DNA from: Arenicola marina
Taxonomy: Eukaryota; Annelida; Polychaeta; Arenicolidae
Direction of reading: 5' to 3'
NCBI GenBank assembly: GCA_964019135.1
Contig: OZ025261.1
Span: 33,434,738 to 33,498,737, forward strand
DNA length: 64,000 bases
Below are positions 590 through 44,696 of the stretch, piece after piece. Each line of letters starts with the position of its first letter. Within the stretch, counting starts at the first letter, position 1. Made by a program: the position numbers and the translations under genes. The notes below the pieces were generated by a model. The model was not told the DNA's origin. It did no database searches and saw only the letters and a program-made list of their open reading frames with translations.

Positions 590-2283
590 CTGAAATGTAA
601 AGTAATGAATATACAGTATACAGTATAGCCAGAATGGTGTAGATAAGACTATGTAATAGTTTTAGTCATGTGGCAGTCTTGCATCATGTACACAATGTGG
701 CGGAAATGTTGTTCCATTTCATGATCGCTTTATCATTCGTCAATGGAGAAATTCTCACATATCTGTATCTCATCCGGGGTTTGTGGTTAATAACTATGTG
801 TGGAGGTGGGTATTACATGGGGGTGGTGGTTACTAATCTCAGGAGTGGTGGTTATTAACCTGAGGAGTTGTGGTTACGAACCTGTGGAGTGGTGGTTATT
901 AACTCCAGGGGGGCTGGCGGTTACCTGGGGGGTGATGGTTCTTACCTGGGGGGGGGCGAAGGTTCTTACCAGGGGGGTGATGGTTCTTACCTGGGGGGTG
1001 ATGCGACACCTGCTCGGCACAGTATCGCAGTCGTATATCTTTAGAGACCGCGGTCGGGGATGTAGTGGAGGTCGTGACCTGGGTGGTCGTGAGCGGGGGA
1101 GTGGTGGACCCCGTGGCTGGGAGGGTGGCGCAGCTGGCCCCGTCCGTCCCTCCCGTCACCCCCTCCCCCTCCCCCTCCTCCTCCTCCCCCCGTGGCGGCG
1201 ACAACCTGTCCTCCCGCTCCGTGTCTGGCCGATCTCGCGTGGTACCAGCCACGTCATTGCTCAACTCGGGCTCTGATTGGCCGTCACCACCCGGGAATGT
1301 TTCTGATTGGCTATTTTGGACATCGGCGACGCTGGATGAGTCACGTGGTATAGACCATGAGCAGTGGAATGTCTCGCCGATAATTGGGTTAAAAGGTTTC
1401 TTCGCTATTGACCCCTGAAACACAACAGGCCATATATATGTACGTAATATATAATATTACGTAATAAATGCTACGAAGAGACAAATGATAAAAAATCAGT
1501 GGTAATAGTAATAGTAATAAGTAAAGACCGTCTGCTAATCGTGCTGTGTTTTGTCAAAGACAACATGAGCACGCTACAACGCGATCACCCACTGCATACT
1601 ACGTAGATAATAGTACATTGAGGAGCAGTAATTAAACTTCGCTATCAGTAGAAGATCTACGAGCAGAGAGAGGGAGAGGACCCGGGTCCGCTAGTCGGAA
1701 ACACAGTACGCTACCAGCTGAGGTACGGAGCCTCATTTCCTCCCTTACTATGCAGCGCGGCGCATACACTACTAACGCGGCCTTGACCTTGCGTCCCTCA
1801 CCTTGCGTCCCGCGTGGAATGACGTCAGGTACCACTCCACAACGGCCAACATCCGGGTCTCTGGAGTTGTCTGGTCGCTGATTCTGTAACACAACACAGG
1901 GCTTTAAATAACATCAGACTTGTGGTAGAACGTTAGTTCAACTTTGGTTAACTACAAGTAATCACACTACTGACTAACTTCACACCAGGTGTAGCCGATA
2001 TCAGTCACCCCCGACCCCAGTCAGTCTAGGGTTACATAAAGGCCCCCATCGTCACCATGGAAACATACACAGGTCGAACCCACGACGGTTGTTACACTAG
2101 ATAGTCCTGGTGTCACGACAGCCCTCTCGGAATCAGCAGTGGACAAAGTGTAACAGGGAGTCAAACTGGCCTCGGCTGGTGGGATCACTCCTTTAACCGA
2201 CTAGGTAGAGTGGCTGACTCGAGATCGGGAGGTCGTGGGTTCGACTCTCACCGGTGGCTAAACCGGCCCCCGCGGTTACATTT

Positions 2284-2317
<34 letters not shown>

Positions 2318-5300
2318 GAACAATAGTATTAATAATTACTTAATTATTATGCCCAGTATCAATAATATATTAATTATTATTATTACACACAGGTGATAAC
2401 CATAAATAGACCACCGTGAGGAGAGTTTGAGACAAAGACCACTGACCGCAGGAACAGGTCTGGGTGCGCCATACAGTCTGCAAACAACTCCAGCAGCGAT
2501 CGCTTCTCCAGGATAAACGTCGGCAAGACCACCTAGACAGGAAAAAAGATTAAATAATTCAAGACAGACACACGTGTCGCTTCGGCAACACAATGCGAAT
2601 ACGGGGCAACCGGCACGATACGGGCTGATGGTCGTAAGTGCTAGGTAGTGCAATGATGATGCCATATCGTGCATTGGCATATCATGACAAAAAGGGGATC
2701 TGTATCCTCCCCAAATATAGACATTTTCTGCACAGATGGGGCTCGAACCTGGGAAGACACGTTAGCGGGTTACTACCGGTATATCCTTTAAACATCTGTG
2801 ACGTTGTAAAGCGGTGTCGTTTCCGGGCGTCAGGATGAACCGAATCTGTGACCCGTTAAACCGCCGTTGAGTATGCGTATATTATGCCATGTGCAGTTGC
2901 AGGCCCCGGAAGGCCGGCCCCTGGAGTACCGTAGAACCGCCCGGGAGGTGGAGGATGACTTACCTTTGTCGGGTCCATGCCCAGCTTGAGCTGTGACCGG
3001 AGGTGGAGGATGACTTACCTTTGTCAGGTCCATGCCCAGCTTGAGCTGTGACGGGAGGTGGAGGATGACATACCTTTGTCAGGTCCATACCCAGCTTGAG
3101 CTGTGACAGGAGGTGGAGGATGACTTACCTTTGTCAGGTCCATGCCCAGCTTGAGCTGTGACGGGAGGTGGAGGATGACTTACCTTTGTCAGGCCCATAC
3201 CCAACTTGAGCTGTGACAGGAGGTGGAGGATGACTTACCTTTGTCAGGTCCATGCCCAGCTTGAGCTGTGACAGGAGGTGGAGGATGACTTACCTTTGTC
3301 AGGTCCATACCCAGCTTGAGCTGTGACAGGAGGTGGAGGATGACTTACCTTTGTCGGGCTCATGCCCAGCTTGAGCTGTGACAGGAGGTGGAGGATGACT
3401 TACCTTTGTCAGGTCCATACCCAGCTTGAGCTGTGACAGGAGGTGGAGGATGACTTACCTTTGTCAGGTCCATGCCCAGCTTGAGCTGTGACGGGAGGTG
3501 GAGGATGACTTACCTTTGTCAGGCCCATACCCAACTTGAGCTGTGACAGGAGGTGGAGGATGACTTACCTTTGTCAGGTCCATGCCCAGCTTGAGCTGTG
3601 ACAGGAGGTGGAGGATGACTTACCTTTGTCAGGTCCATGCCCAGCTTGAGCTGTGACAGGAGGTGGAGGATGACTTACCTTTGTCAGGTCCATACCCAGC
3701 TTGAGCTGTGACAGGAGGTGGAGGATGACTTACCTTTGTCAGGTCCATGCCCAGCTTGAGCTGTGACAGGAGGTGGAGGATGACTTACCTTTGTCAGGTC
3801 CATGCCCAGCTTGAGCTGTGACAGGAGGTGGAGGATGACTTACCTTTGTCAGGTCCATACCCAGCTTGAGCTGTGACAGGAGGTGGAGGATGACTTACCT
3901 TTGTCAGGCCCATACCCAGCTTGAGCTGTGACAGGAGGTGGAGGATGACTTACCTTTGTCAGGTCCATGCCCAGCTTGAGCTGTGACAGGAGGTGGAGGA
4001 TGACTTACCTTTGTCAGGTCCATGCCCAGCTTGAGCTGTGACAGGAGGTGGAGGATGACTTACCTTTGTCAGGTCCATGCCCAGCTTGAGCTGTGACAGG
4101 AGGTGGAGGATGACTTACCTTTGTCAGGTCCATGCCCAGCTTGAGCTGTGACAGGAGGTGGAGGATGACTTACCTTTGTCAGGTCCATGCCCAGCTTGAG
4201 CTGTGACAGGAGGTGGAGGATGACTTACCTTTGTCAGGTCCATGCCCAGCTTGAGCTGTGACAGGAGGTGGAGGATGACTTACCTTTGTCAGGTCCATGC
4301 CCAGCTTGAGCTGTGACAGGAGGTGGAGGATGGCTTACCTTTGTCAGGTCCATGCCCAGCTTGAGCTGTGGCAGGAGGTGGAGGATGACTTACCTTTGTC
4401 AGGTCCATGCCCAGCTTGAGCTGTGACGGGAGGTGGAGGATGACTTACCTTTGTCAGGTCCATGCCCAGCTTGAGCTGTGACAGGAGGTGGAGGATGACT
4501 TACCTTTGTCAGGTCCATGCCCAGCTTGAGCTGTGACAGGAGGTGGAGGATGACTTACCTTTGTCAGGTCCATGCCCAGCTTGAGCTGTGACAGGAGGTG
4601 GAGGATGACTTACCTTTGTCAGGTCCATGCCCAGCTTGAGCTGTGACAGGAGGTGGAGGATGACTTACCTTTGTCAGGTCCATGCCCAGCTTGAGCTGTG
4701 ACAGGAGGTGGAGGATGACTTACCTTTGTCAGGTCCATGCCCAGCTTGAGCTGTGACAGGAGGTGGAGGATGACTTACCTTTGTCAGGTCCATGCCCAGC
4801 TTGAGCTGTGACAGGAGGTGGAGGATGACTTACCTTTGTCAGGTCCATGCCCAGCTTGAGCTGTGACAGGAGGTGGAGGATGACTTACCTTTGTCAGGTC
4901 CATGCCCAGCTTGAGCTGTGACAGGAGGTGGAGGATGACTTACCTTTGTCAGGTCCATGCCCAGCTTGAGCTGTGACAGGAGGTGGAGGATGACTTACCT
5001 TTGTCAGGTCCATACCCAGCTTGAGCTGTGACAGGAGGTGGAGGATGACTTACCTTTGTCAGGTCCATGCCCAGCTTGAGCTGTGACAGGAGGTGGAGGA
5101 TGACTTACCTTTGTCAGGTCCATGCCCAGCTTGAGCTGTGACAGGAGGTGGAGGATGACTTACCTTTGTCAGGTCCATGCCCAGCTTGAGCTGTGACAGG
5201 AGGTGGAGGATGACTTACCTTTGTCAGGTCCATGCCCAGCTTGAGCTGTGACAGGAGGTGGAGGATGACTTACCTTTGTCAGGTCCATGCCCAGCTTGAG

Positions 5301-8300
5301 CTGTGACAGGAGGTGGAGGATGACTTACCTTTGTCAGGTCCATGCCCAGCTTGAGCTGTGACAGGAGGTGGAGGATGACTTACCTTTGTCAGGTCCATGC
5401 CCAGCTTGAGCTGTGACAGGAGGTGGAGGATGACTTACCTTTGTCAGGTCCATGCCCAGCTTGAGCTGTGACGGGAGGTGGAGGATGACTTACCTTTGTC
5501 AGGTCCATGCCCAGCTTGAGCTGTGACAGGAGGTGGAGGATAACTTACCTTTGTCAGGTCCATGCCCAGCTTGAGCTGTGACGGGAGGTGGAGGATAACT
5601 TACCTTTGTCAGGTCCATGTCCAGCTTGAGCTGTGACAGGAGGTGGAGGATAACTTACCTTTGTCAGGTCCATGCCCAGCTTGAGCTGTGACAGGAGGTG
5701 GAGGATAACTTACCTTTGTCAGGTCCATGCCGAGCTTGAGCTGTGACAGGAGGTGGAGGATGACTTACCTTTGTCAGGTCCATGCCCAGCTTGAGCTGTG
5801 ACAGGAGGTGGAGGATGACTTACCTTTGTCAGGTCCATGCCCAGCTTGAGCTGTGACAGGAGGTGGAGGATGACTTACCTTTGTCAGGTCCATGCCCAGC
5901 TTGAGCTGTGACAGGAGGTGGAGGATGACTTACCTTTGTCAGGTCCATGCCCAGCTTGAGCTGTGACAGGAGGTGGAGGATGACTTACCTTTGTCAGGTC
6001 CATGCCCAGCTTGAGCTGTGACAGGAGGTGGAGGATGACACTCTTGTGCTCCTCCACACCGCTCAGCTCCGTGTCCGAGAACTCCTTGATGTCCGCCACC
6101 TCGTCCTCGCTCCTCGGCATCTCTGCCAACCACAGAATAACTCTGGACTTGACTTTTGGGAACAAAACTGTTTACGCGTAAGGATGGCTGAACAAATTAA
6201 TTTGTTGGCAGTTTGCCAGTTATCGTCTCTTGAATTTAATTTATGAGCGATGAGCTCTTGTTACCTACCAATGCAGTCACTGCCGTCCGCCAAAGCGGCA
6301 CATGAATTTGGGGGCGGGAGAGGGGGTGGGTGGACTTCAGCCCCCTACCCGGCGCACTGGAAAGGGAGGGGTTGTTACCTAGTGAGACAGACAGTCTACC
6401 CAGGGAGTCGAAGAGGGGGGGGGCTGGTACCTACCCGTGATGTCACTGCCGTCCCTGACCGTCGCGCCGTTGTCACCCAAGGAGTAGGATGTCGCAGACA
6501 CGTAGCTCTCGGCGGGGGAGGCCGGGTCGGGCAGGGCACTCTGCTTGGTGTTGGGGCTGCAAGCAGACCGTCACAGACATCACGTGTCACATCACAATAT
6601 TACGTACCGTGGCTGTGTAAACATAATTCTAATTCTTCAATATACGTGACGCCCAAAATGCCTTCGACTATTTTATTTTTCCTCATATCGAAATCATGCA
6701 AATCGTGGGTGGTGGGCAACTTGAAGGTCATGTGTACATGAAGGTCAAAGTGAACCATGAAATGGGGTTAGATAAAATACGGCCCAAATACATGTATCAG
6801 GGTTCGACCCCACAACCTGTTGATCTGCAGCTCAGTCTTGATTGGCAACTGAGTGAGTTTGGCTGCCCCAGTTAGAATAAAACCCTGCACAACGCTACCA
6901 CAATTGTTAGCATTTTCCCGTAGTCTCATTTATTGTGTAGTTTCACCTCGACTCCTACTTTGTATTACTCCGCGAAGCAGCAAGCATTCTACTCGGCGTG
7001 ACTCCGCGAGGCATCAAGTCCCCCAGCATATATAAGCTATTACGTTACGCCGGTGCATGTATCACTGGTGGCCCGGGACCACACAGCCGAGTCCCCAGCA
7101 TTAGGGTCTAATGGGTATTCTGTCTTGGGTAATACTCACAGTCGGAGGGCTGGCAGGGGTCGTGGTGTTTCCAGCCACTCTATGCTACCCCCATTGGCGT
7201 GGATTGCACTGTTACTGGCAGCTTTCTGGGTGTGTTTTTTTTTTTTTGGGGGGGGGGGGGGGAGAGATAGGTAGTAATTTATACACAAGTAATAATGAAA
7301 GATGTTGTCCAAAATACCTAAGTAAAGTTATCTATTATTTATGTTATATTTGAAGATCCTTACACTGGAGACCTATTTTTAAAGGAACATAATTTAATAT
7401 TGTCCTAATTACGAAATAGTACAAATAAATCACGACGATAAGGCACCACATCAATCTAGATGTCTGTCTGCATCAAGCATTACATTAAAACTGCTGCACA
7501 ATGAATATGATTATAGAATGCAAGAATAACGCTGTCAAAAACAGATGAAGGATGTTAAACTAGTCTCTCTCAAAAATAAAAAAGTGGTGTTTTTGGCCAC
7601 TCTTGTTAAGATGGACATTGAAGTCTCCCGTGACAATGAAAGGGGGTTGGATGCGACGTGCCCCAGATACGGGTACCAGGACGCGAACCCACGACCTGTT
7701 GATCTACAGAGGTCCAGCCTTATTCCCATCGATAGCACCAGAGAGAAACAGTAATCGACTTCATGGCCAACAAACGAACAAGCAAAACAAGCAGTTTATG
7801 CCCAAGATAGTTTCTTTTCGGGTAGCGTCATAAATGTATTTTTCGTCTATACGTTTTTTGTTGTGTGGTGTAAAGCGTGGCCACTAGGGGCGCCACTGAC
7901 TGGTGAGGTCACCTGTTGCTGGTGCAGGATGGAGAGGCAGTGCTCCAGACAGCCCATGGTGGACATGGAGGTCGCCTTCAGCAGTAACAATTCCTGCAAC
8001 ACACACCACATAAATCACAAGATAGGATAACGTACGATCAAGCTTTATATAACGTCGGTGTAAAAAAGTTAACAATATAACAATAACTATTGAGCGAATT
8101 TTCATTTCATTTTCATATCGTAAGAAACGTGGCACGTCCAACTAGGCAACTAGGCTGCTAGGCGAGCCGTTTAAATCTATAACCACCATTTTCTTGTGTG
8201 ACGTCATGTTTCATTGTTCTATGCAACGTCACTATGGCAACGATTGTCGATTAAATGCGGTTGGGGTCAGATTACAGCTTCCCGCACTCTATAGGGCTAT

Positions 8301-11300
8301 AAAGTCTCGTTCGCTTAGACTTCCGGTTTACTCATTTTGGGGACAAACAAACGAAGCACGTGTTCGGAACGAGTTTAGAAGCTCTGCGCACACTGGTATG
8401 CTGACTATCTGTGACGTAGGCGTGACGTGTATGTTACGCAAAGAGAGAGACCGGGAACCAGACTACCTGCGCAAGAGTCAGGCGCCGAGGGGTGGGTCCA
8501 TTGCGGAAGGCCTAGCGATATGATTCAGAATATTTAAGAAATATAGCTTAACAAAACGGATAGACGACATATTTTTTATTCGTTTGCGCCATCACAATGA
8601 CGAATATTTGTTACGACGGGACAATACGACTGAGAAACTAACGTTTTTTTGTATTTCCTACGAAAACGAGGCATTATGACGTCACACGGATTCTCCCCGA
8701 GTGACAACGTTGGCGCAACGCTTCAAACAGAAAACTTACAGAAATGAAGACACTTGGTCTTTTCGTGACCCAAAAGTGATACGAAAACATCCAACTGGTC
8801 TTGTTTTATCTTTACCATGTGGTTTAATGACGCATCCGTGTGCTGTTACTCCATGCACTGCACATTTTGACAGCGGAATGGTTAAGTCGATCACTTGCTC
8901 TCGCCATTTTTGTTACCGCGGAGGCACGCGAAACTCTGTGACGTCACTCGCTGTGTGGTGAACTTGCGAAAGCCCGGGTGCAGGGCTAAATTTAGAACGT
9001 TATTTTTAGCTTTCGAGTATTTTGAAGACGGATTTTTCCTTGTATATTCCCAAAGTTCTGCGCTTCATCGCCTCCAAATATTTTAACGTATATCTCTCAT
9101 AGCCACGTTTAGTGAAATGGTACTCATAGTCTTTAGAATAAACCTGGAAAGAAATTGACTTATAGCTGCCTATACTTCAACATGGAGCACGTGTGTTTGT
9201 TTGTCCCCAAAACTGAAGTCTCGCGGCCCGATCGCGAGAACTGTATAGCCCTATTGTCAGTGGCCAATGTTGACCAGTTCCGGGAAAAACCCATCCCGGT
9301 ATACGTGTCCTCTTGTCACTCAGTGGTTACCGCGGCGTCAATGCGCGAAATATTTACATTTATAGTTCCAACAAAGCAACTGAACTAATTAGCTATAGAC
9401 GTCAATCATATGAACTCAAACTAAAGACCTAATAGTTACAATTTACGAAACAAAGTCGTAATAATAAACATTAGCATAAGTGCTTTGAACGACACGGAGA
9501 AAATAAAATGATCTACCGAGGTGTATATATACATATATATTAATGCCTATATGATAATAACAACCATTCCATCAACTCTGGTGAAAGGTTTGTGTTTTCG
9601 TGCGCATAAAGGCTAAAACAGGCATCTTCCCCAAAACAGGACAAAAAAAGTCTGCATAGCTCAATAACAAACAAAACGTTGATAATTGATCACTTTTTTC
9701 ATTGATTTTACATTATAGTGAACCAACCGATAGCGACCAATTAATAATGGCAGGTTCAGCAAATCACTTTATCTTTAAGCTCTTTTTGTATAAGCTACAG
9801 TGGCTTTCTGACCTTGTCTAATGAGCTGGCTGCTTCGCCAGACGACGGTAGATCCTGAAAGCACACAATGCAACGGAAATTATGCAATGGAACAAACAAC
9901 GGTGATTTTCAGCTAGCATACACCACTAACATATTACTAACGGCAGCAATGCAAATTCTACATTTGTATACAATACTTCATGATATATATAAACAGATAT
10001 CAATAAAAAATGTCCCGCCGTGACTCCGAGTACCTCGACTTTGCTGCACATGGACCGCTGATGACCTTGAACTTCGGTCAACATTTCCCTGACGTTGTGG
10101 ACGCTCTCGGCGTCTTGGCTGCGCGCCGGCTGCAGCTGCCCAGGTCCCGGATGTTGAGAGAGCGTCGAGGAGGTCGAGTGACTTCCGGATGCGTTTCGCT
10201 TGTTTAACGACCTGCGGCGTGACACAGAGGGCGATAAAAGGCCGCGTGAGAGGCAGTGGGTGGCCGGGATTTACTCTCCCTACTTCCGGTGCGTATGTGT
10301 AACGACTACCAGCATGATGCGGAGCGCAATATCTCGTCTTGGCGGTGTCATCTTTTTAGGAAATCAGCAGCTATTAGCTATTTCCACGTTAGAAGACGCA
10401 CGAAGTGGGGTTGGCTGCTAGCCGTTCCCTTTATTTGCGTCGTTTTCGAACACATCCCTATTTTCGCCCGCAAAAGAAAAGATTAATGGTTGAAACACGC
10501 CTCAGATTACGTGTCCAGGTTGGGATTCGAACCAAAGACCTGCGGTTCCGCGCGCTATCCACCACACCAGGCAGGCCCTGAGTAAACACCAGCCTATTAG
10601 TCACACGGTTTCAGATAGTCCAGCCACACTAGACTCCGTGTAGCCACGGAGGTGCGCGACATATCCGAGTTGGGAGCGCTCCGCGTTTAATTTGTTGAAC
10701 TAGGTCTGCCACCTAGTGGTAATAAGACACACCTAGTCTTTCTCAAATAACGACACTCGTACATACAGCATTTCAATACTTAGATAAGGGCGATAAAGAC
10801 GAAGACAAAAAACAATACATACTAGTGATGCCGACATGTTCCCAATAAGTGATTAGAGCATAAGTAAAGACATTGCGATGAAAGTCCAGATTATTTAAGC
10901 TTCAGTTCCTTAATCTACGTGAAAAAGCAATCTTTAGCATGTTAAAAGAAAGTACGGATTAACTAATTGGTGTTTTATGCCAAGTTTCTGCGCATGGCGT
11001 AACGACACAGCGTTATGTATCAGTATCAATCGTAGTATTCATACGGTTATCACACAATCATTGTGCGGACCGTAAGATTCAAAAACGATTTCTTATTTTG
11101 ATCATGTGGATCCTGGTATTGAAAGGGTTAATCACGACTATGTGAATGCCGTCTCCAAAGGGCTAAACTGTCTTTAGGGTTCGGGACAAGATAGCTTAAT
11201 ACATAAACACATTTGTGACATAATAACATCCAGCCGGAATTCCTTGTCGCAGACAATAGTTGACTTACGACCACACAAGATGTCCACAGTTGGTTCACCA

Positions 11301-14300
11301 ACCGTAACGCTGATATATACAGTCATATTTCAACTTAAACAGTAGTTTACAGCACGAGATTATAGGCCCACATCTAACCAAAACAACAGCAACGAAATGG
11401 CAGCAGTTGGAAAACCAACAGTGAATACTGTAGCAAGTAGAAACACTGAACCAAGTTTGGCAAGGAAAGAGAAATCAAACATAGAAAATAAGAAAAACAA
11501 AGAACACATAGCCTGGAAACAGAAGTGGCTGCTTCACACCAACCGCTTAGACTATGGCTTACGTCTGTGGAACTAGATGGAGGCCTCCACTCTTCAGTGC
11601 CCCCGATACCTCTGGTACCTCAGGTACATCAGATAGGCAACTGGATAACCCAGGCTCAGCAAGCCTTGGTTCAACCGTAGACGAAAACATGGCCCTTTAG
11701 TTTGACGAGATATACATGTGCTGTTATACATTGGTTTCCAATAGCAGAGAAACGCCGCGAGTGATACTGCCAGTAATTTAATTAAGGTCACGTGTGTAAG
11801 GTTACTCAACAATCAAGGCACAAACACGTGACATGACGCGTTTGTTCGCTTGTTGTACTTAAGTTAGTTAGCAAGGGACCTCAAGTCTCATTCAAGGTGG
11901 ACGGTTAAAGTTGAGAGCTATATCTGAGAAAGCAGCCTTCAATCAGGGTGAATGCCACCACGACAGAAGGAAAAATGTTCGCCGTAAATTAACCAGAACA
12001 AGAGAATGAGTGCCATCAGTGCGTGAACTGTTAGTAGGAAGCACGATTTACCTTCGTGAGACCAAAGGCCTGCGGTAGTCTGATAATTTCGACGGGAAGC
12101 GCTTTCTACCTTTAGTAGAAGCGGAGGGAACGACACTACCGAAGCTGGTTAGTGACGGCCTGCCCGTGGCGGAGGGATATGTGGCGCGAGTGTGAGGAGG
12201 CTCCGCGGAGGAAGACATATTAGGCACAGTGGCAGCTTTCAAGGCGAAGAGGTCGTTAATTCTTTAGGCAGCACAGGCGGGGAAAGGGCGGGCGGAAAGA
12301 CAATGACACAGCATCATGCATATGAAAAAAAAAGGATAAACAACACATAAAGGGATTATGAACATGCACACATGTTAACGGTGAGAAGCAGAAAGCTTCT
12401 ATTGCTGAGTAATCTACTATAGTACTGTAGCTATTTGTTAGTCTACTAATAATGATGGCTGAGAACCATGCACATAAAAAGGGCAGAATCACTAAGTCTC
12501 ATAGAAATGAAAAAGGGACAACAACATATGTAGCTATCAAACACAGGCTGTCACAAATGGTTTCTTCATTTATAAAACGTATTCCGTAGGTATCGGTTTG
12601 AACATTAGCATCCTACTAGTACCTTTTATAGACATAAACGACAGAGGGACAGACTTACTACGTTACTCAATATCACACATTTAAACTGACAACTTGACAC
12701 TTTTCTTTCACATGTTTAAACACTCAAAACACAGGAACTGGGAAGGCTACAATCATGCAATAAGCAAAAGTCATTATTGATATGTTTATCAGTTTCAATT
12801 AATCAGTCTTTAAGCAATGCAGGAAGCATTAACTGTGAATACTATTGAAACAATGATCCTTAAATCAAGTGGTCGGGACTACAGGGATTAGGAGCAAGGG
12901 TCTCTCATTGCAAGCGGTATTTGTAGTGATATATGTCTAGCCTTCAGTTCAAACTATACAGCCAATCGCTTGGTAGTGGAGTGATTTCAACATGGTAAAA
13001 CCAAGCAGCTTAGCCAAAGGTTGAATTTTCATAGTGTACCATCCTGTCTATAGCGCATCATGTGTGGTTGAATGTAATGTGGTGTGCTTAATTAATCCGC
13101 GTTTTATGACGGGGAGGGTACCTTATGTAATGCGTAACCAGAACTTCAGGCAATCCATGTGAAGGCGGAACATATGGGTCTGCGCATGTACTGATGGTAT
13201 AGCCACACCTGCTGCGCGCGGCATAGTCACAGTATAACATAACCCTGACACAGGTGTGGTTCAACCCCCTGACTAAGGGCCCGGCGCTTAGGCCAGTAGA
13301 GACAACCCTTCCGTATATATTACTGATAGCATTACTTTGTATTTTCTCAATATCTCCGAGCTTCACAAATTTTTTGGTTAACCGTATTGCGTTATTTACG
13401 GTCAATCCAAAAAAGATCTAAAGGCATAATCATGAAGACAAAAGTCCCTCCAGTTAATTTCGTTCCTTACATTTATCTTATCTTATTTCAACTATAACTC
13501 TATATAAGGATTTGAAATCAATGCCATGCTGATCGTCTGGTATAGCAAGGCAAAAACGTATAAAAAAACATTTAAAAAAGAAAAAAGAAACTATAACCTA
13601 GTAAACTTAGATATTATCAAATTTTCACATTACATTTTTTAACCAAAGTTGCCAGCTTCTCTAAAGAGGGAATCAGGACGCAATAAAACTTGTACAAGGA
13701 CTTTCAATCAATGATGACGGGAGGGAGTGAAGCGCTAAATACAATAATGCCGTCTTAACTACCATGAAACCTGCCAGCTGAGTGTACAGTCAAGAGGCCC
13801 ATAAAACGTGCACCTTATGCAACTGAGAAAACAAACACACTATAAACCGTCAATCAGCTGGCTGAGCCCTAGAATGCCAACCTTTGTCGCTCGGCAGTTT
13901 TCAGTTGAGGTAATATTGCGCTGAAATGATAATAGGCAGACTCTTCACTTAAAAATAACCAAAATTCTTATTTTAAACGAACATATCCGGAGACTTAGGA
14001 ATCGCCACTTCAGAGAGGCAGAGACAACGACAGGAAGCGATAAGAGGAATTAGACAAGCAAGAACAAAGATGGCGGAATTAAAACAAATTGAGATAGCAC
14101 TTTCATGTGTTCAGGTACTTCTTTATTCGCTACCTATATTATAAGTACTAGTTCAAAAATATTTATATATTTAGGGCATGAATTGTATATTTTGATTACA
14201 ATATCTGTATTGCTCGCATGGAAGAAAGCTGCACAAAGTTGCGCTTTATCAAAACAGATGCTTGTGCATCTTGGTTGTTTTCGTTATGATTAGTATTATA

Positions 14301-17300
14301 AACATGTAAATATAAAAAATTTACACCCCAATTATTTCAATGTATATGAATTAATTCTTATAATATAGGTATTCCAAGGAAAAAGATCATTCTAAAGCGT
14401 TAGTGGCAATAAGGCATAAAGTAGTCAGTTAGTGGCACTGCTCAGTGTATTTACACACACACCTGGTCACACTCAGTCAATAATAAGGCTGTATTGCGCC
14501 GACAAACACCCCGCGATTTATATATATACCCCAACCCACCACGTGTTGCGACCACGTGTCGAGATCCAACCTATCCAGCTGCCACCTGGGGGGACTAGGC
14601 GGATATAGCTTGGCCATGACGGGATCACTCCATAATGACGACATGATGATGTGTTATTTAGGTGGATCGCCGGGTGAGGCGCTCGCCTCTAAAGCGCCGT
14701 GCACGCTGCCCACCAGACCACCCGGGGGGCCCCTCACAACACATAGACCGGTCTCCCTCAGCGCCACACCTGACTATGTGGCCGACAAACCGCCAAATGC
14801 CCGTATAATTAAAACTCAATAAGCCACTATGTAAAGAGCTACTTATCATTAATAAGGCGGGCAGCTGATGTGGGAGTTAACGATAGTTTTATCCTGGTAA
14901 AGGAGACAAAAGGAGATTGACCGGATTGTCTCAAAGAACACCTCGTCACTTAGCAGTCTAATGTCCTAAATGTTATTTCACTAATTGCCTACTTAAAACA
15001 GTGAGCTGTGTACACAGTGGTATTACCAAGTCAATGCACAGAATGCACATCCATGCACAGGAAGGCAACTACTCCAGGGCTGAATCTTTACCACGTGCCA
15101 AAAATCATTGAATTAACGTGAACGGGCTTCGAAACGATAACTCCTTGGACCGTTTGAGCGGTTTATCAACATACGGGCACTCATCTCAGCCGCTGTTTAA
15201 AGTCATCGGAGAACATACAGAGACCACATCAAGGTTCTATGGTCTGAGCCTGCGATCACGAGACCCCTTGATCCATTCTCGAGGACCCGTACCCGACCAA
15301 CCTCTACCCTGTGGTAGTGCACCTCTGCGACCCTGAACCTTCGAACATTCACCCCGTAAACCGTGGTCCTCATTAAATATAAACCCTGCCTTACATCGTG
15401 TGAACCCTCATCAAGGCGAACAACTGTCCTTATGCGTCTTATTTGACGAGTCTTCATCTTGTCAAGTGTAAAAGCTATATATGTATTAGAATATAATCTA
15501 TTGTATTAATTATAACCAGACCCAACTAACTATTACTCGATGTGTGTTGTTTCTACGCGAAAACCTTGAAAACAAAATCATGTCGAGCGCAAACCCTGAC
15601 GCCGCGACCCCGTGACCCGAGACGTACCTGGTGCTGCTAGTTGAGTTCTGGAGGCTGTCGAGGGACCCGCTGCTGTCGCGAGACAACATGGGGGTGGGGC
15701 CGTACGGGTGGAGACGGGGCTCCTTGGGCGGCAGGGCGACGGGTGGCTGTGGGGGAGGGGGCGGGAGAAGGGGCGGGGGTGGGGGCACCAGAAAAAAGGA
15801 TACTTTAACAGATACATTTACTTGCATAGTACATCAAAAGGTAACATCAAAACAGTTTCAAATGAAGAATATTCCCCCATTACCCATCAAAATGATCTGT
15901 TGCCAAAGATAATAATGTCTGCATTGGATAGCCCCTAGACATAATTCAACGCGTTATAGTGGTGCTGTACAGTCACCATACCTCTGTCAGACCGTCATGG
16001 CGGTGTTCTACAGTCACTATACCTCTGTCAGACCGTCATGGTGGTGTTCTACAGTCACCATACCTCTGTCAGACCGTCATGGCGGTGTTCTACAGTCACC
16101 ATACCTCTGTCAGACCGTCATGGTGGTGTTCTACAGTCACCATACCTCTGTCAGACCGTCATGGCGGTGTTCTACAGTCACCATACCTCTGTCAGACCGT
16201 CATGGCGGTGTTCTACAGTCACTATACCTCTGTCAGACCGTCATGGTGGTGTTCTACAGTCACCATACCTCTGTCAGACCGTCATGGCGGTGTTCTACAG
16301 TCACCATACCTCTGTCAGACCGTCATGGCGGTGTTCTACAGTCACTATACCTCTGTCAGACCGTCATGGCGGTGTTCTACAGTCACCATACCTCTGTCAG
16401 ACCGTCATGGCGGTGTTCTACAGTCACCATACCTCTGTCAGACCGTCATGGTGGTGTTCTACAGTCACCATACCTCTGTCAGACCGTCATGGCGGTGTTC
16501 TACAGTCACTATACCTCTGTCAGACCGTCATGGTGGTGTTCTACAGTCACCATACCTGTGTCAGACCGTCATGGCGGTGTTCTACAGTCACCATACCTCT
16601 GTCAGACCGTCATGGCGGTGTTCTACAGTCACCATACCTCTGTCAGACCGTCATGGCGGTGTTCTACAGTCACCATACCTCTGTCAGACCGTCATGGCGG
16701 TGTTCTACAGTCACCATACCTCTGTCAGACCGTCATGGCGGTGTTCTACAGTCACCATACCTCTGTCAGACCGTCATGGCGGTGTTCTACAGTCACCATA
16801 CCTCTGTCAGACCGTCATGGCAGTGTTCTACAGTCACCATACCTCTGTCAGACCGTCATGGCGGTGTTCTACAGTCACCATACCTCTGTCAGACCGTCAT
16901 GGTGGTGTTCTACAGTCACCATACCTCTGTCAGACCGTCATGGCGGTGTTCTACAGTCACCATACCTCTGTCAGACCGTCATGGCGGTGTTCTACAGTCA
17001 CCATACCTCTGTCAGACCGTCATGGCGGTGTTCTACAGTCACCATACCTCTGTCAGACCGTCATGGCGGTGTTCTACAGTCACCATACCTCTGTCAGACC
17101 GTCATGGCGGTGTTCTACAGTCACCATACCTCTGTCAGACCGTCATGGCGGTGTTCTACAGTCACCATACCTCTGTCAGACCGTCATGGTGGTGTTCTAC
17201 AGTCACCATACCTCTGTCAGACCGTCATGGCGGTGTTCTACAGTCACCATACCTCTGTCAGACCGTCATGGCAGTGTTCTACAGTCACCATACCTCTGTC

Positions 17301-20300
17301 AGACCGTCATGGCGGTGTTCTACAGTCACCATACCTCTGTCAGACCGTCATGGCGGTGTTCTACAGTCACCATACCTCTGTCAGACCGTCATGGTGGTCA
17401 CCATACCTCTGTCAGACCGTCATGGCGGTGTTCTACAGTCAACATACCTCTGTCAGACCGTCATGGCGGTGTTCTACAGTCACCATACCTCTGTCAGACC
17501 GTCATGGCAGTGTTCTACAGTCACCATACCTCTGTCAGACCGTCATGGCGGTGTTCTACAGTCACCATACCTCTGTCAGACCGTCATAGCGGTGTTCTAC
17601 AGTCACCATACCTCTGTCAGACCGTCATGGCGGTGTTCTACAGTCACCATACCTCTGTCAGACCGTCATGGCGGTGTTCTACAGTCACCATACCTCTGTC
17701 AGACCGTCATGGCGGCGTTCTACAGTCACCATACCTGTCAGACCGTCATGGCGGTGTTCTACAGTCACCATACCTCTGTCAGACCGTCATGGCAGTGTTC
17801 TACAGTCACCATACCTCTGTCAGACCGTCATGGCGGTGTTCTACAGTCACCATACCTCTGTCAGACCGTCATGGCGGTGTTCTACAGTCACCATACCTCT
17901 GTCAGACCGTCATGGCGGTGTTCTACAGTCACCATACCTCTGTCAGACCGTCATGGCGGTGTTCTACAGTCACCATACCTCTGTCAGACCGTCATGGCGG
18001 TGTTCTACAGTCACCATACCTCTGTCAGACCGTCATGGCGGTGTTCTACAGTCACCATACCTCTGTCAGACCGTCATGGCGGTGTTCTACAGTCACCATA
18101 CCTCTGTCAGACCGTCATGGTGGTGTTCTACAGTCACCATACCTCTGTCAGACCGTCATGGCGGTGTTCTACAGTCACCATACCTCTGTCAGACCGTCAT
18201 GGCGGTGTTCTACAGTCACCATACCTCTGTCAGACCGTCATGGCGGTGTTCTACAGTCACCATACCTCTGTCAGACCGTCATGGTGGTGTTCTACAGTCA
18301 CCACACCTCTGTCAGACCGTCATGGCGGTGTTCTACAGTCACCATACCTCTGTCAGACCGTCATGGCGGTGTTCTACAGTCACCATACCTCTGTCAGACC
18401 GTCATGGCGGTGTTCTACAGTCACCATACCTCTGTCAGACCGTCATGGCGGTGTTCTACAGTCACCATACCTCTGTCAGACCGTCATGGCGGTGTTCTAC
18501 AGTCACCATACCTCTGTCAGACCGTCATGGTGGTGTTCTACAGTCACCACACCTCTGTCAGACCGTCATGGCGGTGTTCTACAGTCACCATACCTCTGTC
18601 AGACCGTCATGGCGGTGTTCTACAGTCACCATACCTCTGTCAGACCGTCATGGCGGTGTTCTACAGTCACCATACCTCTGTCAGACCGTCATGGCGGTGT
18701 TCTACAGTCACCATACCTCTGTCAGACCGTCATGGCGGTGTTCTACAGTCACCATACCTCTGTCAGACCGTCATGGCGGTGTTCTACAGTCACCATACCT
18801 CTGTCAGACCGTCATGGCGGTGTTCTACAGTCACCATACCTCTGTCAGACCGTCATGGCGGTGTTCTACAGTCACCATACCTCTGTCAGACCGTCATGGC
18901 GGTGTTCTACAGTCACCATACCTCTGTCAGACCGTCATGGCGGTGTTCTACAGTCACCATACCTCTGTCAGACCGTCATGGCGGTGTTCTACAGTCACCA
19001 TACCTCTGTCAGACCGTCATGGCGGTGTTCTACAGTCACCATACCTCTGTCAGACCGTCATGGCGGTGTTCTACAGTCACCATACCTCTGTCAGACCGTC
19101 ATGGCGGTGTCCTACAGTCACCATACCTCTGTCAGACCGTCATGGCGGTGTTCTACAGTCCCCATACCTCTGTCAGACCGTCATGGCGGTGTTCTACAGT
19201 CACCATACCTCTGTCAGACCGTCATGGTGGTGTTCTACAGTCACCATACCTCTGTCAGACCGTCATGGCGGTGTTCTACAGTCACCATACCTCTGTCAGA
19301 CCGTCATGGCGGTGTTCTACAGTCACCATACCTCTGTTAGACCGTCATGGCGGTGTTCTACAGTCACCATACCTCTGTCAGACCGTCATGGCGGTGTTCT
19401 ACAGTCACCATACCTCTGTCAGACCGTCATGGTGGTGTTCTACAGTCACCATACCTCTGTCAGACCGTCATGGCGGTGTCCTACAGTCACCATACCTCTG
19501 TCAGACCGTCATGGCGGTGTTCTACAGTCACCATACCTCTGTCAGACCGTCATGGCGGTGTTCTACAGTCACCATACCTCTGTCAGACCGTCATGGCGGT
19601 GTTCTACAGTCACCATACCTCTGTCAGACCGTCATGGCGGTGTTCTACAGTCACCATACCTCTGTCAGACCGTCATGGCGGTGTTCTACAGTCACCATAC
19701 CTCTGTCAGACCGTCATGGCGGTGTTCTACAGTCACCATACCTCTGTCAGACCGTCATGGCGGTGTTCTACAGTCACCATACCTCTGTCAGACCGTCATG
19801 GCGGTGTTCTACAGTCACCATACCTCTGTCAGACCGTCATGGCGGTGTTCTACAGTCACCATACCTCTGTCAGACCGTCATGGCGGTGTTCTACAGTCAC
19901 CATACCTCTGTCAGACCGTCATGGCGGTGTTCTACAGTCACCATACCTCTGTCAGACCGTCATGGCGGTGTTCTACAGTCACCATACCTCTGTCAGACCG
20001 TCATGGCGGTGTTCTACAGTCACCATACCTCTGTCAGACCGTCATGGCGGTGTTCTACAGTCACCATACCTCTGTCAGACCGTCATGGCGGTGTTCTACA
20101 GTCGCCATACCTCTGTCAGACCGTCATGGCGGTGTTCTACAGTCACCATACCTCTGTCAGACCGTCATGGCGGTGTTCTACAGTCACCATACCTCTGTCA
20201 GACCGTCATGGCGGTGTTCTACAGTCACCATACCTCTGTCAGACCGTCATGGTGGTGTTCTACAGTCACCACACCTCTGTCAGACCGTCATGGCGGTGTT

Positions 20301-23300
20301 CTACAGTCACCATACCTCTGTCAGACCGTCATGGCGGTGTTCTACAGTCACCATACCTCTGTCAGACCGTCATGGCGGTGTTCTACAGTCACCATACCTC
20401 TGTCAGACCGTCATGGCGGTGTTCTACAGTCACCATACCTCTGTCAGACCGTCATGGCGGTGTTCTACAGTCACCATACCTCTGTCAGACCGTCATGGCG
20501 GTGTTCTACAGTCACCATACCTCTGTCAGACCGTCATGGCGGTGTTCTACAGTCACCATACCTCTGTCAGACCGTCATGGCGGTGTTCTACAGTCACCAT
20601 ACCTCTGTCAGACCGTCATGGCGGTGTTCTACAGTCACCATACCTCTGTCAGACCGTCATGGCGGTGTTCTACAGTCACCATACCTCTGTCAGACCGTCA
20701 TGGCGGTGTTCTACAGTCACCATACCTCTGTCAGACCGTCATGGCGGTGTTCTACAGTCACCATACCTCTGTCAGACCGTCATGGCGGTGTTCTACAGTC
20801 ACCATACCTCTGTCAGACCGTCATGGTGGTGTTCTACAGTCACCATACCTCTGTCAGACCGTCATGGCGGTGTCCTACAGTCACCATACCTCTGTCAGAC
20901 CGTCATGGCGGTGTTCTACAGTCCCCATACCTCTGTCAGACCGTCATGGCAGTGTTCTACAGTCACCATACCTCTGTCAGACCGTCATGGCGGTGTTCTA
21001 CAGTCACCATACCTCTGTCAGACCGTCATGGCGGTGTTCTACAGTCACCATACCTCTGTCAGACCGTCATGGCGGTGTTCTACAGTCACCATACCTCTGT
21101 CAGACCGTCATGGCGGTGTTCTACAGTCACCATACCTCTGTCAGACCGTCATGGCGGTGTTCTACAGTCACCATACCTCTGTCAGACCGTCATGGCGGTG
21201 TTCTACAGTCACCATACCTCTGTCAGACCGTCATGGCGGTGTTCTACAGTCACCATACCTCTGTCAGACCGTCATGGCGGTGTTCTACAGTCACCATACC
21301 TCTGTCAGACCGTCATGGCGGTGTCCTACAGTCACCATACCTCTGTCAGACCGTCATGGCGGTGTTCTACAGTCACCATACCTCTGTCAGACCGTCATGG
21401 CGGTGTTCTACAGTCACCATACCTCTGTCAGACCGTCATGGCGGTGTTCTACAGTCACCATACCTCTGTCAGACCGTCATGGCGGTGTTCTACAGTCGCC
21501 ATACCTCTGTCAGACCGTCATGGCGGTGTTCTACAGTCACCATACCTCTGTCAGACCGTCATGGCGGTGTTCTACAGTCACCATACCTCTGTCAGACCGT
21601 CATGGCGGTGTTCTACAGTCACCATACCTCTGTCAGACCGTCATGGCGGTGTTCTACAGTCACCATACCTCTGTCAGACCGTCATGGCGGTGTTCTACAG
21701 TCACCATACCTCTGTCAGACCGTCATGGCGGTGTTCTACAGTCGCCATACCTCTGTCAGACCGTCATGGCGGTGTTCTACAGTCACCATACCTCTGTCAG
21801 ACCGTCATGGCGGTGTTCTACAGTCACCATACCTCTGTCAGACCGTCATGGCGGTGTTCTACAGTCACCATACCTCTGTCAGACCGTCATGGCGGTGTTC
21901 TACAGTCACCATACCTCTGTCAGACCGTCATGGCGGTGTTCTACAGTCACCATACCTCTGTCAGACCGTCATGGCGGTGTTCTACAGTCACCATACCTCT
22001 GTCAGACCGTCATGGCGGTGTTCTACAGTCACCATACCTCTGTCAGACCGTCATGGCGGTGTTCTACAGTCACCATACCTCTGTCAGACCGTCATGGCGG
22101 TGTTCTACAGTCACCATACCTCTGTCAGACCGTCATGGCGGTGTTCTACAGTCACCATACCTCTGTCAGACCGTCATGGCGGTGTTCTACAGTCGCCATA
22201 CCTCTGTCAGACCGTCATGGCGGTGTTCTACAGTCACCATACCTCGGTCAGACCGTCATGGCAGTGTTCTACAGTCACCATACCTCTGTCAGACCGTCAT
22301 GGCGGTGTTCTACAGTCACCATACCTCTATCAGACCGTCATGGCGGTGTTCTACAGTCACCATACCTCTGTCAGACCGTCATGGCGGTGTTCTACAGTCG
22401 CCATACCTCTGTCAGACCGTCATGGCGGTGTTCTACAGTCACCATACCTCTGTCAGACCGTCATGGCGGTGTTCTACAGTCACCATACCTCTGTCAGACC
22501 GTCATGGCGGTGTTCTACAGTCACCATACCTCTGTCAGACCGTCATGGTGATGCTCGGCTGTAGCTCGCAGCCGGTTCACCCAGTGCTGGCGTTCCTTGG
22601 CATCGTAAGCTGCAAAAATAAGAAGTAGGTTAAGACTACTGTGTGACTATATCTGACCACTGTGTGTGACTATCTGACCACTGTGTGTGACTATCTGACC
22701 ACTGTGTGTGACTATCTGACCACTGTGTGTGACTATCTGACCACTGCGTGTGACTATCTGACCACTGTGTGTGACTATCTGACCACTGCGTGTGACTATC
22801 TGACCACTGTGTGTGACTATCTGACCACTGTGTGTGACTATCTGACCACTGTGTGTGACTATCTGACCACTGTGTGTGACTATCTGACCACTGTGTGTGA
22901 CTATCTGACCACTGTGTGTGACTATCTGACCACTGTGTGTGACTATCTGACCACTGTGTGTGACTATCTGACCACTGTGTGTGACTATCTGACCACTGTG
23001 TGTGACTATCTGACCACTGTGTGTGACTATCTGACCACTGTGTGTGACTATCTGACCACTGTGTGTGACTATCTGACCACTGTGTGTGACTATCTGACCA
23101 CTGTGTGTGACTATCTGACCACTGTGTGTGACTATCTGACCACTGTGTGTGACTATCTGACCACTGTGTGTGACTATCTGACCACTGTGTGTGACTATCT
23201 GACCACTGTGTGTGACTATCTGACCACTGTGTGTGACTATCTGACCACTGTGTGTGACTATCTGACCACTGTGTGTGACTATCTGACCACTGTGTGTGAC

Positions 23301-26300
23301 TATCTGACCACTGTGTGTGACTATCTGACCACTGTGTGTGACTATCTGACCACTGTGTGTGACTATCTGACCACTGTGTGTGACTATCTGACCACTGTGT
23401 GTGACTATCTGACCACTGTGTGTGACTATCTGACCACTGTGTGTGACTATCTGACCACTGTGTGTGACTATCTGACCACTGTGTGTGACTATCTGACCAC
23501 TGTGTGTGACTATCTGACCACTGTGTGTGACTATCTGACCACTGTGTGTGACTATCTGACCACTGTGTGTGACTATCTGACCACTGTGTGTGACTATCTG
23601 ACCACTGTGTGTGACTATCTGACCACTGTGTGTGACTATCTGACCACTGTGTGTGACTATCTGACCACTGTGTGTGACTATCTGACCACTGTGTGTGACT
23701 ATCTGACCACTGTGTGTGACTATCTGACCACTGTGTGTGACTATCTGACCACTGTGTGTGACTATCTGACCACTGTGTGTGACTATCTGACCACTGTGTG
23801 TGACTATCTGACCACTGTGTGTGACTATCTGACCACTGTGTGTGACTATCTGACCACTGTGTGTGACTATCTGACCACTGTGTGTGACTATCTGACCACT
23901 GTGTGTGACTATCTGACCACTGTGTGTGACTATCTGACCACTGTGTGTGACTATCTGACCACTGTGTGTGACTATCTGACCACTGTGTGTGACTATCTGA
24001 CCACTGTGTGTGACTATCTGACCACTGTGTGTGACTATCTGACCACTGTGTGTGACTATCTGACCACTGTGTGTGACTATCTGACCACTGTGTGTGACTA
24101 TCTGACCACTGTGTGTGACTATCTGACCACTGTGTGTGACTATCTGACCACTGTGTGTGACTATCTGACCACTGTGTGTGACTATCTGACCACTGTGTGT
24201 GACTATCTGACCACTGTGTGTGACTATCTGACCACTGTGTGTGACTATCTGACCACTGTGTGTGACTATCTGACCACTGTGTGTGACTATCTGACCACTG
24301 TGTGTGACTATCTGACTACTGTGTGTGACTATCTGACCACTGTGTGTGACTATCTGACCACTGTGTGTGACTATCTGACCACTGTGTGTGACTATCTGAC
24401 CACTGTGTGTGACTATCTGACCACTGTGTGTGACTATCTGACTACTGTGTGTGACTATCTGACCACTGTGTGTGACTATCTGACCACTGTGTGTGACTAT
24501 CTGACCACTGTGTGTGACTATCTGACCACTGTGTGTGACTATCTGACTACTGTGTGTGACTATCTGACCACTGTGTGTGACTATCTGACTACTGTGTGTG
24601 ACTATCTGACCACTGTGTGTGACTATCTGACCACTGTGTGTGACTATCTGACCACTGTGTGTGACTATCTGACCACTGTGTGTGACTATCTGACCACTGT
24701 GTGTGACTATCTGACCACTGTGTGTGACTATCTGACCACTGTGTGTGACTATCTGACCACTGTGTGTGACTATCTGACCACTGTGTGTGACTATCTGACC
24801 ACTGTGTGTGACTATCTGACCACTGTGTGTGACTATCTGACCACTGTGTGTGACTATCTGACCACTGTGTGTGACTATCTGACCACTGTGTGTGACTATC
24901 TGACCACTGTGTGTGACTATCTGACCACTGTGTGTGACTATCTGACCACTGTGTGTACATTTACCAAATTACCATTAAAATAATAATATTATCCCATAAC
25001 GATATTGCGATATATTTCAAAGATGGAATTACTTTTAAATTATATTTTCATGTTATTTTCCACAATGAAGTAGATTTAAAATTAATAAAAAAAATAAAAT
25101 AGACACCTACAGACAGGAAACCACTTGCAACTTCATATGTGACATGCACGTGTACATGTCCGGGGATGAAGATAGCATGCGTGGACCGTTATTCGTCACA
25201 ACAACATAACCAGCGTGTTATACAACGTGTTAGACAGTATGTTATACAACGTCTTATACAGTATGTTATACAGCGTGTTATACAGTATGTTATACAGTAT
25301 GTTACACAACGTGTTATACAGTATGTTATACAGTATGTTATACAGTATGTTATACAACGTGTTATACAGTATGTTATACAACGTGTTATACAGTATGTCA
25401 TACAACGTGTTATACAGTATGTTATACAACGTGTTATACAGTATGTTATACAGCGCGTTACACATAAGCTGATTGACGCTTGACGCTGACCTCGCAGTCT
25501 GTAGATCTCCCCATTGGCGGCATTGACAGAAAACGTTTGAGAATCTTCATCGGACGGGCAAATCACAGATCCCTGTAAGGTAGAAAGACGTCATGTACCA
25601 TTATACATCCCGTACGCGTATCGCAGCTATTTCCTGGGACCAGCAATGACGTCAATTCCGGGGTCTGTTACAAATGAATAAAGTACACAGCAACATACGT
25701 ATGTACAGTATTTACGAACCGATAGTGGATAAATGTTTTTTCACAGTATCTAGAGATAAGACGGTATCCCAATTTTGACATAGAATGTGTCTCGTGGATA
25801 GATCTATTAACTACGGTCCATTTTCAACTTAAAGGTCGGCTAGAGGTGGTCATTCACATGTGCATTGATGCTTGACTGATTATTGATAACCTCTTGTAAT
25901 AAATAAGGGTTTTCAACAACAAAAACTCTCAAGGTAGCGTAGCACGAACATTATAAGGCAGAGAGAGAGAGCGGGACTCACCGAGAGTTGGACAGAGCCA
26001 CGTGCTTTCTGACCGTCCTTCCGGTGTTCCTCCTTCTGCAAGAGACAGAGGTAGTCCCAATAGCTATGGTGGTGATATCAAATAAGATGTTGGTGCCTTA
26101 GGCCGCTTTTGTTGACATTTTTGCGACACATTGGGCTAAACATTTAAACACAACTATAACTTTGCATTCGTCCCCTGCGAGTGTCAATCAAGCAGTTTCA
26201 ATATAATTTAATCGGTGACATTGCACCCAGCTTTCAGTACGATATACTCACCTCGAAGTAGTCGAGCCTGCCGACCTCAGGGTCGAGAGCAAACCAGCGG

Positions 26301-29681: not shown

Positions 29682-31055
29682 ATGTGATCTCGCGGGCAGA
29701 GAGGTCGTCGTCAGGCTCGACACGTGTGATGTCACATTCATCGCTCCACAATAATGCCAAGATTGGGAATCCGTAACCCATCCTATTATCGCCCATCTCG
29801 GCGACATTTCCGGCCGAAGCGTTTGTCAACGACGGGCCCTCAGACCGCGGCTACACAGGACGCGACGATCACCAGCCACCCAGTCAGCCAGTGGGCCGCG
29901 CAACACAGGCGGAAAGATGTCCCCAACTTCAAGTTTTGAAGCACGAGTGAGAGACAGAAGAGGAGGGGCGAGCCCAGAGGTACATCAATACATCTGGAGA
30001 GAAAAACCCCAGATCGCAGCAGCCCACCTGTTCGTTTGACGAACGACCAACTACCTGTCCGAGCGGGGCGACCCCGTTTTTTTGCCATAATCTACGCTGA
30101 GCAAGATGGGCGATCGTCCTCCTTATGCTGAGGCACGTCACCCCCCCCCCCCCCCCCCAGACACCTAACCCCTCCGACCGCCGACGCCTCACCCCGACGT
30201 AACCATCCACCCCTCCACCTCTCCTCCCAATATGCGCGGCATGCGCAGGTCCGAAGTGCGAAGATTGCGGGAGGGGGCCTTATCACGCACGTGACGTCAC
30301 CATGACGCCCCGCCCCTGGACGCGTCACCCCCGGGGGGTGCTGATCACACACCATCAGTGTAGTAGTCAGTAATCCCCCCCCCCCCACCCATGCAATCAG
30401 TGAGCCCCTCCATCTTATTAGCCTTCAACCGCCCCGCCCAAAACTCCTTCACCTTTCGCCTTGTGGATATTTTCCCATCATGGTTTAATTAGCGCACATG
30501 GCTTAAGACCAAAGAGAAACAAAGTTCACTCATCGCTACTCCGTTCGCGGCGAAGACTATAAATAGTAACCAACAATGAACAAAATGATCTTCCAGATAA
30601 TATGCGTACATGGCAACTAAACCGTGGGGGGGGGGGCACACTGGGACAAGAAAATGAGTTTTAATAAAACATGGGCCAGAGTTCAATGGTAACTGGCGAC
30701 GATCCCATCCATGCAGGAATAGCCGCAGAGAGGAGTGTGTACATGCACAGCGGGGCACTCAGGTGTAACATCCTTCCGTCCATATGCTGAAGGCTCGTCC
30801 GTAGTACAATGACGAGGTCTCGGGAAGTCTCGTAAAACTCTCAGCCACCATCCCTAGACATAGGCATGTCACTATATAATCATACACCACAAAAAAGCCG
30901 AAAATTACCTACATGGGGTGTGGTGGCGTGTGGAGGGTGGGGGGGCCGGGGCTCTAGAGGTGTACCATTATGTCAACTCTACAGCAGCTAAACGATCGGG
31001 TGACAGCGAAGAGGAAGTATGGTCGGCTTATTAGCAGGTATTCGCTAGAAATCAT
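29682..31055. other. GC-rich region upstream of exon 1
   Basis: CpG-containing DNA with C runs at 30130-30160 and 30375-30388 and a G run near 30627. Possible promoter region of the minus-strand gene, but no TATA box or initiator is convincing. Short open frames here look accidental. Confidence 0.4.
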
Positions 31056-34930: not shown

Positions 34931-34942
34931 GAAAGTGCCGTG

Positions 34943-40185: not shown

Positions 40186-40334
40186 ATATAAATAGGGAAA
40201 TCTGTTCATCAATAACATGTATATTTTTTCCAGGCTTCATCACTTTTGTACATTTACCAAGAGGTGAGCATTCGCATGTTTTGTACGTTGTTGCAAACCT
40301 CTATAAAGAAATAAAGCTTATATAAAAAAAAAAA

Positions 40335-44600: not shown

Positions 44601-44696
44601 AGTGCGGTAAGCGTCTGTAGTGAGGGCGATGACGTCACAGAGCGGTAAGCGTCGGCAGTGAGCGTGTATGAGGTCACAGTGCGGTAAGCGTCTGCA
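41641..44696 (+). repeat. 38-bp minisatellite with CRE palindromes, about 80 copies
   Basis: Unit contains GCGGTAAGCGTCGGCAGTGA, then GGGCGATGACGTCACAGA. Many copies hold TGACGTCA; others have TGACGTTA or TGAGGTCA. Mixed unit types (CGGCAG, CTGCAG, CTGTAG) occur in blocks. Confidence 0.96.

Follow-up and report, generated by a model that had tools for sequence, protein, structure and literature searches.

Tandem repeats across splice junctions of an oxysterol-binding-protein-related gene and other genes of the annelid Arenicola marina

Tandem repeats lying over exon-intron boundaries were named 'mirages' in the Adh3 gene of amphioxus and are described there in globin genes as well; the Adh3 data, together with reverse transcription PCR on the globins, suggest according to the authors that regular splicing is undisturbed, and the arrays are reported to be unstable in length, in the case of Adh3 also somatically (PMC3087553). 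PGBD5 and troponin C are given as further lancelet cases (PMC3902484). Here we analyse a stretch of 64,000 nucleotides from Arenicola marina (the window), part of contig C14 of an 867-Mb assembly, whose minus strand carries an oxysterol-binding-protein-related (ORP) gene in which tandem repeats of the gene's own exon-intron junction are found at 4 of the 18 modelled donors. A preliminary description of the window had named the amphioxus mirages as a precedent, and that precedent is real (PMC3087553, PMC3902484).

Four donors inside repeats of their own junction

The ORP gene encodes a PH domain and an Oxysterol_BP domain, and its second half aligns with the structures of ORP8 and of oxysterol-binding protein homolog 6. 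The gene model comprises 18 internal exons, from position 26353 of the window to position 7108 of L012, a locus to the left of the window; exon numbers are those of the preliminary description, and exon 7 as well as the exon or exons upstream of the modelled set are uncertain. Continuity with the solved structures is maintained, with a gap of at most two residues, across the joins LTK/VVLPTF, GRK/GSIAKKP, SHHPP/VSAFY and GK(M)/RLRLLA (the slash marks the junction). Since the joined protein follows the ORP fold, the modelled donors and acceptors are the ones that a normal protein requires. This continuity is compatible with regular splicing in spite of the repeated sites.

The donors of exons 5, 12, 14 and 15 had been described as embedded in repeats with units of 41, 55, 14 and about 21 bp and copy numbers from 2 to about 160, and Tandem Repeats Finder (TRF), direct reading of the sequence, protein continuity and the position of the domains, taken together, agree with this for all four; the units are, by inspection, unrelated to one another. 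Exon 5 (22609-22530, minus strand, as are all features of the gene) ends in ...HHHDGLTE/gtatgg, its donor (GAG/gtatgg, at 22530/22529) being located after the end of the PH domain, and is spanned by a TRF array of about 161 copies of 41 bp (15961-22548), which takes in about 19 exonic bases before continuing into intron 5. Exon 12 (6120-5989) ends in ...LGMDLTK/gtaagt, with the donor AAAG/gtaagt at 5989/5988 and the continuity LTK/VVLPTF, and its TRF array (2944-6039) consists of 56 copies of 55 bp, each unit composed of about 50 exonic bases plus gtaag. The smallest case is a 14-bp duplication (1784-1811), two copies identical at 13 of 14 positions, over the donor of exon 14 (1883-1802; ...FHAGRK/gtgagg, donor GCAAG/gtgagg at 1802/1801); it was read from the sequence and is absent from the TRF table. 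Exon 15 (1414-991; ...VSHHPP/gtaaga, donor CCCAG/gtaaga at 991/990, continuity SHHPP/VSAFY) is spanned by an array of 21-22 bp units (823-1003) that includes 13 exonic bases and appears in TRF as a row at 921-1003 and a more degenerate one at 823-903. Exon 6 of the gene is found at one place only in the assembly, so that a second haplotype for comparison is lacking.

One of the 18 acceptors of the same gene, that of exon 17, ends an array of about 34 copies of 31 bp to the left of the window (L012:8416-9438), which includes just two exonic bases, and a further array of 110 copies of 21 bp (22640-24956, minus strand) stops about 30 bp ahead of the exon 5 acceptor without crossing it.

The position of the next acceptors bears on the origin of these introns. 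In the AGGT model, introns are gained by a tandem genomic duplication that carries AG/GT, and the arrays might thus mark the recent birth of introns from tandemly duplicated, AGGT-bearing exon sequence. The units do contain AG/GT, and some, namely those of the 55-bp array and of locus L042 of the survey presented below, also hold an acceptor-like stretch. But all four repeats of the window stop inside the intron, 214, 411, 369 and 233 bp short of the next acceptor in introns 5, 12, 14 and 15, respectively (the 411 bp separating the end of the 55-bp array from the acceptor of exon 13, 2532-2447), and none of them provides an intron with its donor as well as its acceptor. Because the next acceptors lie outside the repeats, the locus does not conform to the AGGT model, and we regard recent intron birth as very improbable.

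The GT is intact in all 56 copies of the 55-bp array and in 159 of 159 anchorable copies of the 41-bp array, the latter having been located by matching 24 bases, the donor among them, with at most three mismatches, a procedure that favours intact copies. The arrays are homogeneous, sites varying by only some 1% on average, which is too little to tell whether the retained GT reflects selection; ranked among all windows of the unit, the donor 9-mer takes place 15 of 41 in the 41-bp array and 14 of 55 in the 55-bp array, which is evidence neither for nor against selection on the donor copies. Polarity of growth, with the distal copies more diverged, was considered as a signature of the junction arrays and rejected: it is present in both long donor arrays and also in several of nine other arrays, and is not junction-specific, the copy splitter having apparently been out of register in the 41-bp array.

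Tandem-array background and a survey of 100 exons

Tandem arrays make up 53% of the window. They cover 27% of 14 spaced 10-kb stretches of the genome (28% at a lower threshold), with a range of 0 to 90%, and start there at a rate of 0.93 per kb, or 0.43 per kb for arrays of at least 100 bp; these stretches held only a handful of exons, not enough to serve as a held-out test. With arrays filling 27-28% of the spaced stretches, arrays near exons are to be expected, and part of the pattern reflects a tandem-rich genome.

Several other features of the window were noted. One 42-bp unit recurs in the arrays at 31051-34930 and 40335-41640, which flank long plus-strand frames (34940-36022, 36518-38287 and 38284-40185) that resemble by eye a retrotransposon of the long interspersed nuclear element type with endonuclease and reverse transcriptase; as judged from the sequence, this element seems to have been inserted into the 42-bp array (31051-41640). 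Related units of 37-38 bp with a common TCGGCAGTGAGGGCGATGACG core form arrays at 28635-28959 and 41644-44698, 13 kb apart, and positions 1-400 belong to a dispersed element with at least 42 matches in the genome at 83-100% identity.

The preliminary description had proposed to compare donors, acceptors and random positions for junction-crossing repeats, and such a comparison was made on 100 exons from four families, chosen blind to repeats by their Pfam family matches. The sample comprised, with 300 bp on each side, 41 of 77 myosin-head, all 26 Oxysterol_BP and all 13 aldehyde dehydrogenase matches, as well as, with flanks of 120 bp, 20 of 133 kinesin matches, which were hand-picked among the upper entries of the list, inside the domain and avoiding three odd contigs. 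In the five kinesin matches on contigs C390, C504 and C536, the interrupting stop codons are TAG and TAA but never TGA, a pattern seen in ciliate nuclear codes, and these contigs are perhaps derived from a contaminant or a symbiont. Splice sites were set by a simple consensus score beside the match, which placed 89 of the 100 donors and 92 of the 100 acceptors, the others being dropped, and a crossing was defined as an array passing the junction by at least 6 bp.

Arrays cross 11 of the 89 donors by the lag method (L035, L042, L055, L056, L058, L060, L071, L083, L087, L112 and L115), and TRF recovers the identical 11. Five of the 92 acceptors are crossed by the lag method (the paralogous pairs L069/L070 and L080/L081, and L072), which amounts to three independent cases. 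TRF likewise gives five acceptors, without L080 and with L057, a 15-bp repeat 40 bp long that falls outside the 5/92, so that the union of both methods is six, four of them independent. Two further loci were left out of the counts: L052, where a tandem repeat is located near the end of the match and the donor could not be placed, and L100, where the array enters the exon by only 2 bp. No array was found wholly inside an exon by the lag method in the 100 exons, whereas TRF reported two short ones (L051 and L083, 2.2-2.6 copies), and among 300 Markov-shuffled loci none had an array.

The pattern is seen clearly at L035 (62-bp unit, with 49 exonic myosin bases) and at the acceptor of L069 (51-bp unit, with 39 exonic bases). 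At L069/L070, in an ORP gene on contig C11, the length of the acceptor unit, 51 bp, is divisible by three and its frame is open, so that use of upstream acceptors could add repeats of 17 residues; these loci resemble two copies of one duplicated portion of the gene, or of the assembly. The unit of L042, of about 37 bp, can be read as a polypyrimidine-AG stretch, 12-13 exonic bases and a donor, and its array thus forms a string of potential micro-exons. For the 15 donor-crossing repeats as a whole (four from the window, 11 from the sample), the unit length is a multiple of three in two to four cases, depending on the method (units of 21 and 42 bp, with 99/100 and 119/126 doubtful), about five being expected by chance. 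The lack of an excess fits extra donor copies that never enter the mRNA.

Against four background rates, 1.3-4.7 donor crossings were expected, and the 11 observed exceed them all (p 2e-7 to 0.009). The five acceptor crossings compare with 1.4-4.9 expected (p 0.014-0.54; p 0.16-0.86 for the three independent ones). The proposed comparison thus places donors above background, but it separates them from acceptors less well, at p values between 0.026 and 0.21.

Starts of arrays near donors

Around donors, array coverage rises from about 1% at -60 to -50 to 13% at the junction and about 30% beyond +30; around acceptors it reaches 7% at the junction itself and 29-30% at a distance of 150-250 bp upstream. 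It thus climbs smoothly from exon to intron, with lower values near acceptors than near donors. As coverage mixes the length of arrays with their birth, starts per base of unique sequence were counted as well, using TRF on exons with long flanks after removal of five paralogous copies, which left 65 donors. Starts per kb of unique sequence at donors amount to 2.5 over the final 60 bases of the exon, 5.0 from 0 to +40, 1.1 from +40 to +100 and 0.9 from +100 to +200, and in the matching bins at acceptors to 1.0, 2.9, 2.6 and 1.2. When only arrays showing 100 bp or more are counted, 18 starts fall within -60 to +40 of a donor versus 2 within +40 to +200 (binomial p 3.5e-5; Kolmogorov-Smirnov (KS) p 1.9e-4), and for all arrays 19 versus 7 (p 0.005; KS 0.012); the lag method gives a similar pattern of donor starts. 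No significant trend was found for the clustering of starts at acceptors (p 1.0 and 0.30; KS 0.29-0.34). Short introns would dilute the far bins, and the neighbouring matches inspected were from 142 bp (in one myosin gene) to about 1-2 kb apart.

We consider it probable that these arrays are junction-spanning minisatellites which are tolerated since the donor nearest the exon remains usable, and whose birth or persistence is biased towards the ends of exons. A tandem duplication of the last exon bases, the donor and the first intron bases would add intronic sequence only, provided that the exon-proximal donor stays in use; later copies could pile up as in any minisatellite, and selection would mostly purge duplications lying wholly within exons. 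Duplications at acceptors probably persist less, since they would create competing AGs or polypyrimidine tracts upstream. Beyond such tolerance, arrays seem to arise or to persist more often at distances of up to about 60 bp from the end of an exon, and this is clearest at donors. The structure of the arrays, the junctions, the frequency of crossings in the sample and the clustering of starts are observed. It is from general knowledge of splicing and of minisatellites that we infer the use of the first donor, the role of selection as a filter and any mutational bias.

Tolerance without any donor bias would be another account: in a tandem-rich genome, ordinary minisatellites would come to lie on junctions by chance, and sites would differ only in what they tolerate. 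The abundance of arrays, which occupy 27-28% of the spaced stretches and about 30% of the intron sequence flanking exons, speaks for it, as do the smooth cline in coverage and the uncollapsed Fisher tests of donors against acceptors (p 0.12 or 0.21). However, start density near donors, 2.5-5 per kb of unique sequence, exceeds both the value of about 1 deeper in the intron and that of 0.93 in the spaced stretches, and tolerance alone would not favour donor-proximal over deep-intron starts, which makes chance a somewhat doubtful explanation.

A further account, close to the preliminary description, in which a process that duplicates active donors was held to explain the four repeats better than chance, regards active 5' splice sites as mutational hot spots, where a process tied to transcription or splicing (R-loops, breaks or template switching by the polymerase at exon ends) generates duplications. 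Donor crossings and donor starts do exceed the background, with 11 crossings against 1.3-4.7 expected, 18 starts of long arrays near donors against 2 far from them and no significant trend at acceptors, and to this extent the claim stands. Duplication aimed at the donor itself is less well supported: coverage has no peak at the donor in the sampled exons, acceptors are duplicated too, and 10 of the 19 donor-proximal arrays begin in the intron, at +4 to +39, and do not include the donor. We consider the hot-spot account unlikely. The same applies to its wider form, in which the 5' splice sites of this annelid would be birthplaces of tandem duplications, about one donor in eight would carry a minisatellite of its own junction and the introns of many genes would have grown from their donors.

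The following points weigh against the bias towards exon ends, and the first two against the hot-spot account as well. The contrast between donors and acceptors by counting is weak, with a Fisher p of 0.12, or 0.026 with paralogous copies collapsed, changing to 0.21 and 0.061, respectively, when L057 is included; the bin from -60 to +40 was set after a first look at the data, the four families are from one genome, and array copy numbers rest on one assembly without reads. Intronic array edges near both junctions could furthermore reflect deletion of unconstrained unique sequence between the array and the exon, a process that could not have produced the starts inside exons observed at 9 of the 65 donors. 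The donor bias thus has post hoc support, acceptors are also hit, and roughly half of the arrays near donors begin within the intron.

Should mirages prove common in an annelid, they would not be an oddity of lancelets. Genes with dozens to 160 near-identical consecutive donors offer a natural setting for testing how one 5' splice site is selected by the spliceosome among equivalent ones, and a peak of array starts near donors, if true, would connect tandem duplication and the growth of introns with transcription or splicing.

Annelid host and comparison with described systems

The mitochondrial contig of the assembly, of 15,942 bases, has a single coding strand, with the gene order F-E-P-T-nad4L-nad4-C-M-rrnS-V-rrnL-L-A-S-L-nad1-I-K-nad3-S-nad2-cox1-N-cox2-D-atp8-Y-G-cox3-Q-nad6-cytb-W-atp6-R-H-nad5; apart from cox1, its protein and rRNA genes were named from translations and position, and two reverse-strand tRNA calls that overlap genes look spurious. 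The same order is presented as the putative ancestral one of Sedentaria, found in oligochaetes, leeches and Siboglinidae (PMC8924214), and transcription from one strand is described for annelid mitochondrial genes (PMC4505326). The match with the order of Sedentaria identifies the genome as annelid, rejects an amphioxus origin and sets the host apart from the cephalochordates in which mirages are known, although taxon is no criterion of mechanism. By title and abstract start, no annelid report of junction-spanning arrays was found in the open-access literature searched.

Among annelids, earthworm metallothionein genes also possess minisatellite arrays in an intron, which are described as lying inside the first intron and not over a splice junction (PMC12783039). 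Human internal tandem repeats in genes of segmental duplications are likewise of minisatellite length and located at exon-intron boundaries, but there the variable repeats are reported to alter splicing and to be able to form new introns, with about four copies on average and in recent paralogues (PMC2812944).

Intron gain by the AGGT route shares with the present arrays a tandem duplication that carries AG/GT and differs in that here the next acceptor lies outside the repeat.

The closest resemblance is with the amphioxus mirages of Adh3, troponin C, the globins BflGb6 and BflGb9 and PGBD5, described as minisatellite-like tandem duplications over 5' or 3' exon-intron boundaries with units of about 10-160 bp (PMC3087553, PMC3902484). 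Units joining the end of an exon with the start of its intron occur at the four donors of the window, and junctions are crossed at 11/89 donors and 5/92 acceptors of the sample. In contrast with the lancelet cases, the arrays presented here belong to another phylum, affect four donors in one gene, reach about 161 copies, were sampled in four gene families in which array starts cluster near donors, and are known from the DNA of one assembly. The junction arrays of this annelid thus extend the mirages to a new phylum, where they are apparently common and show an apparent bias towards the vicinity of donors.

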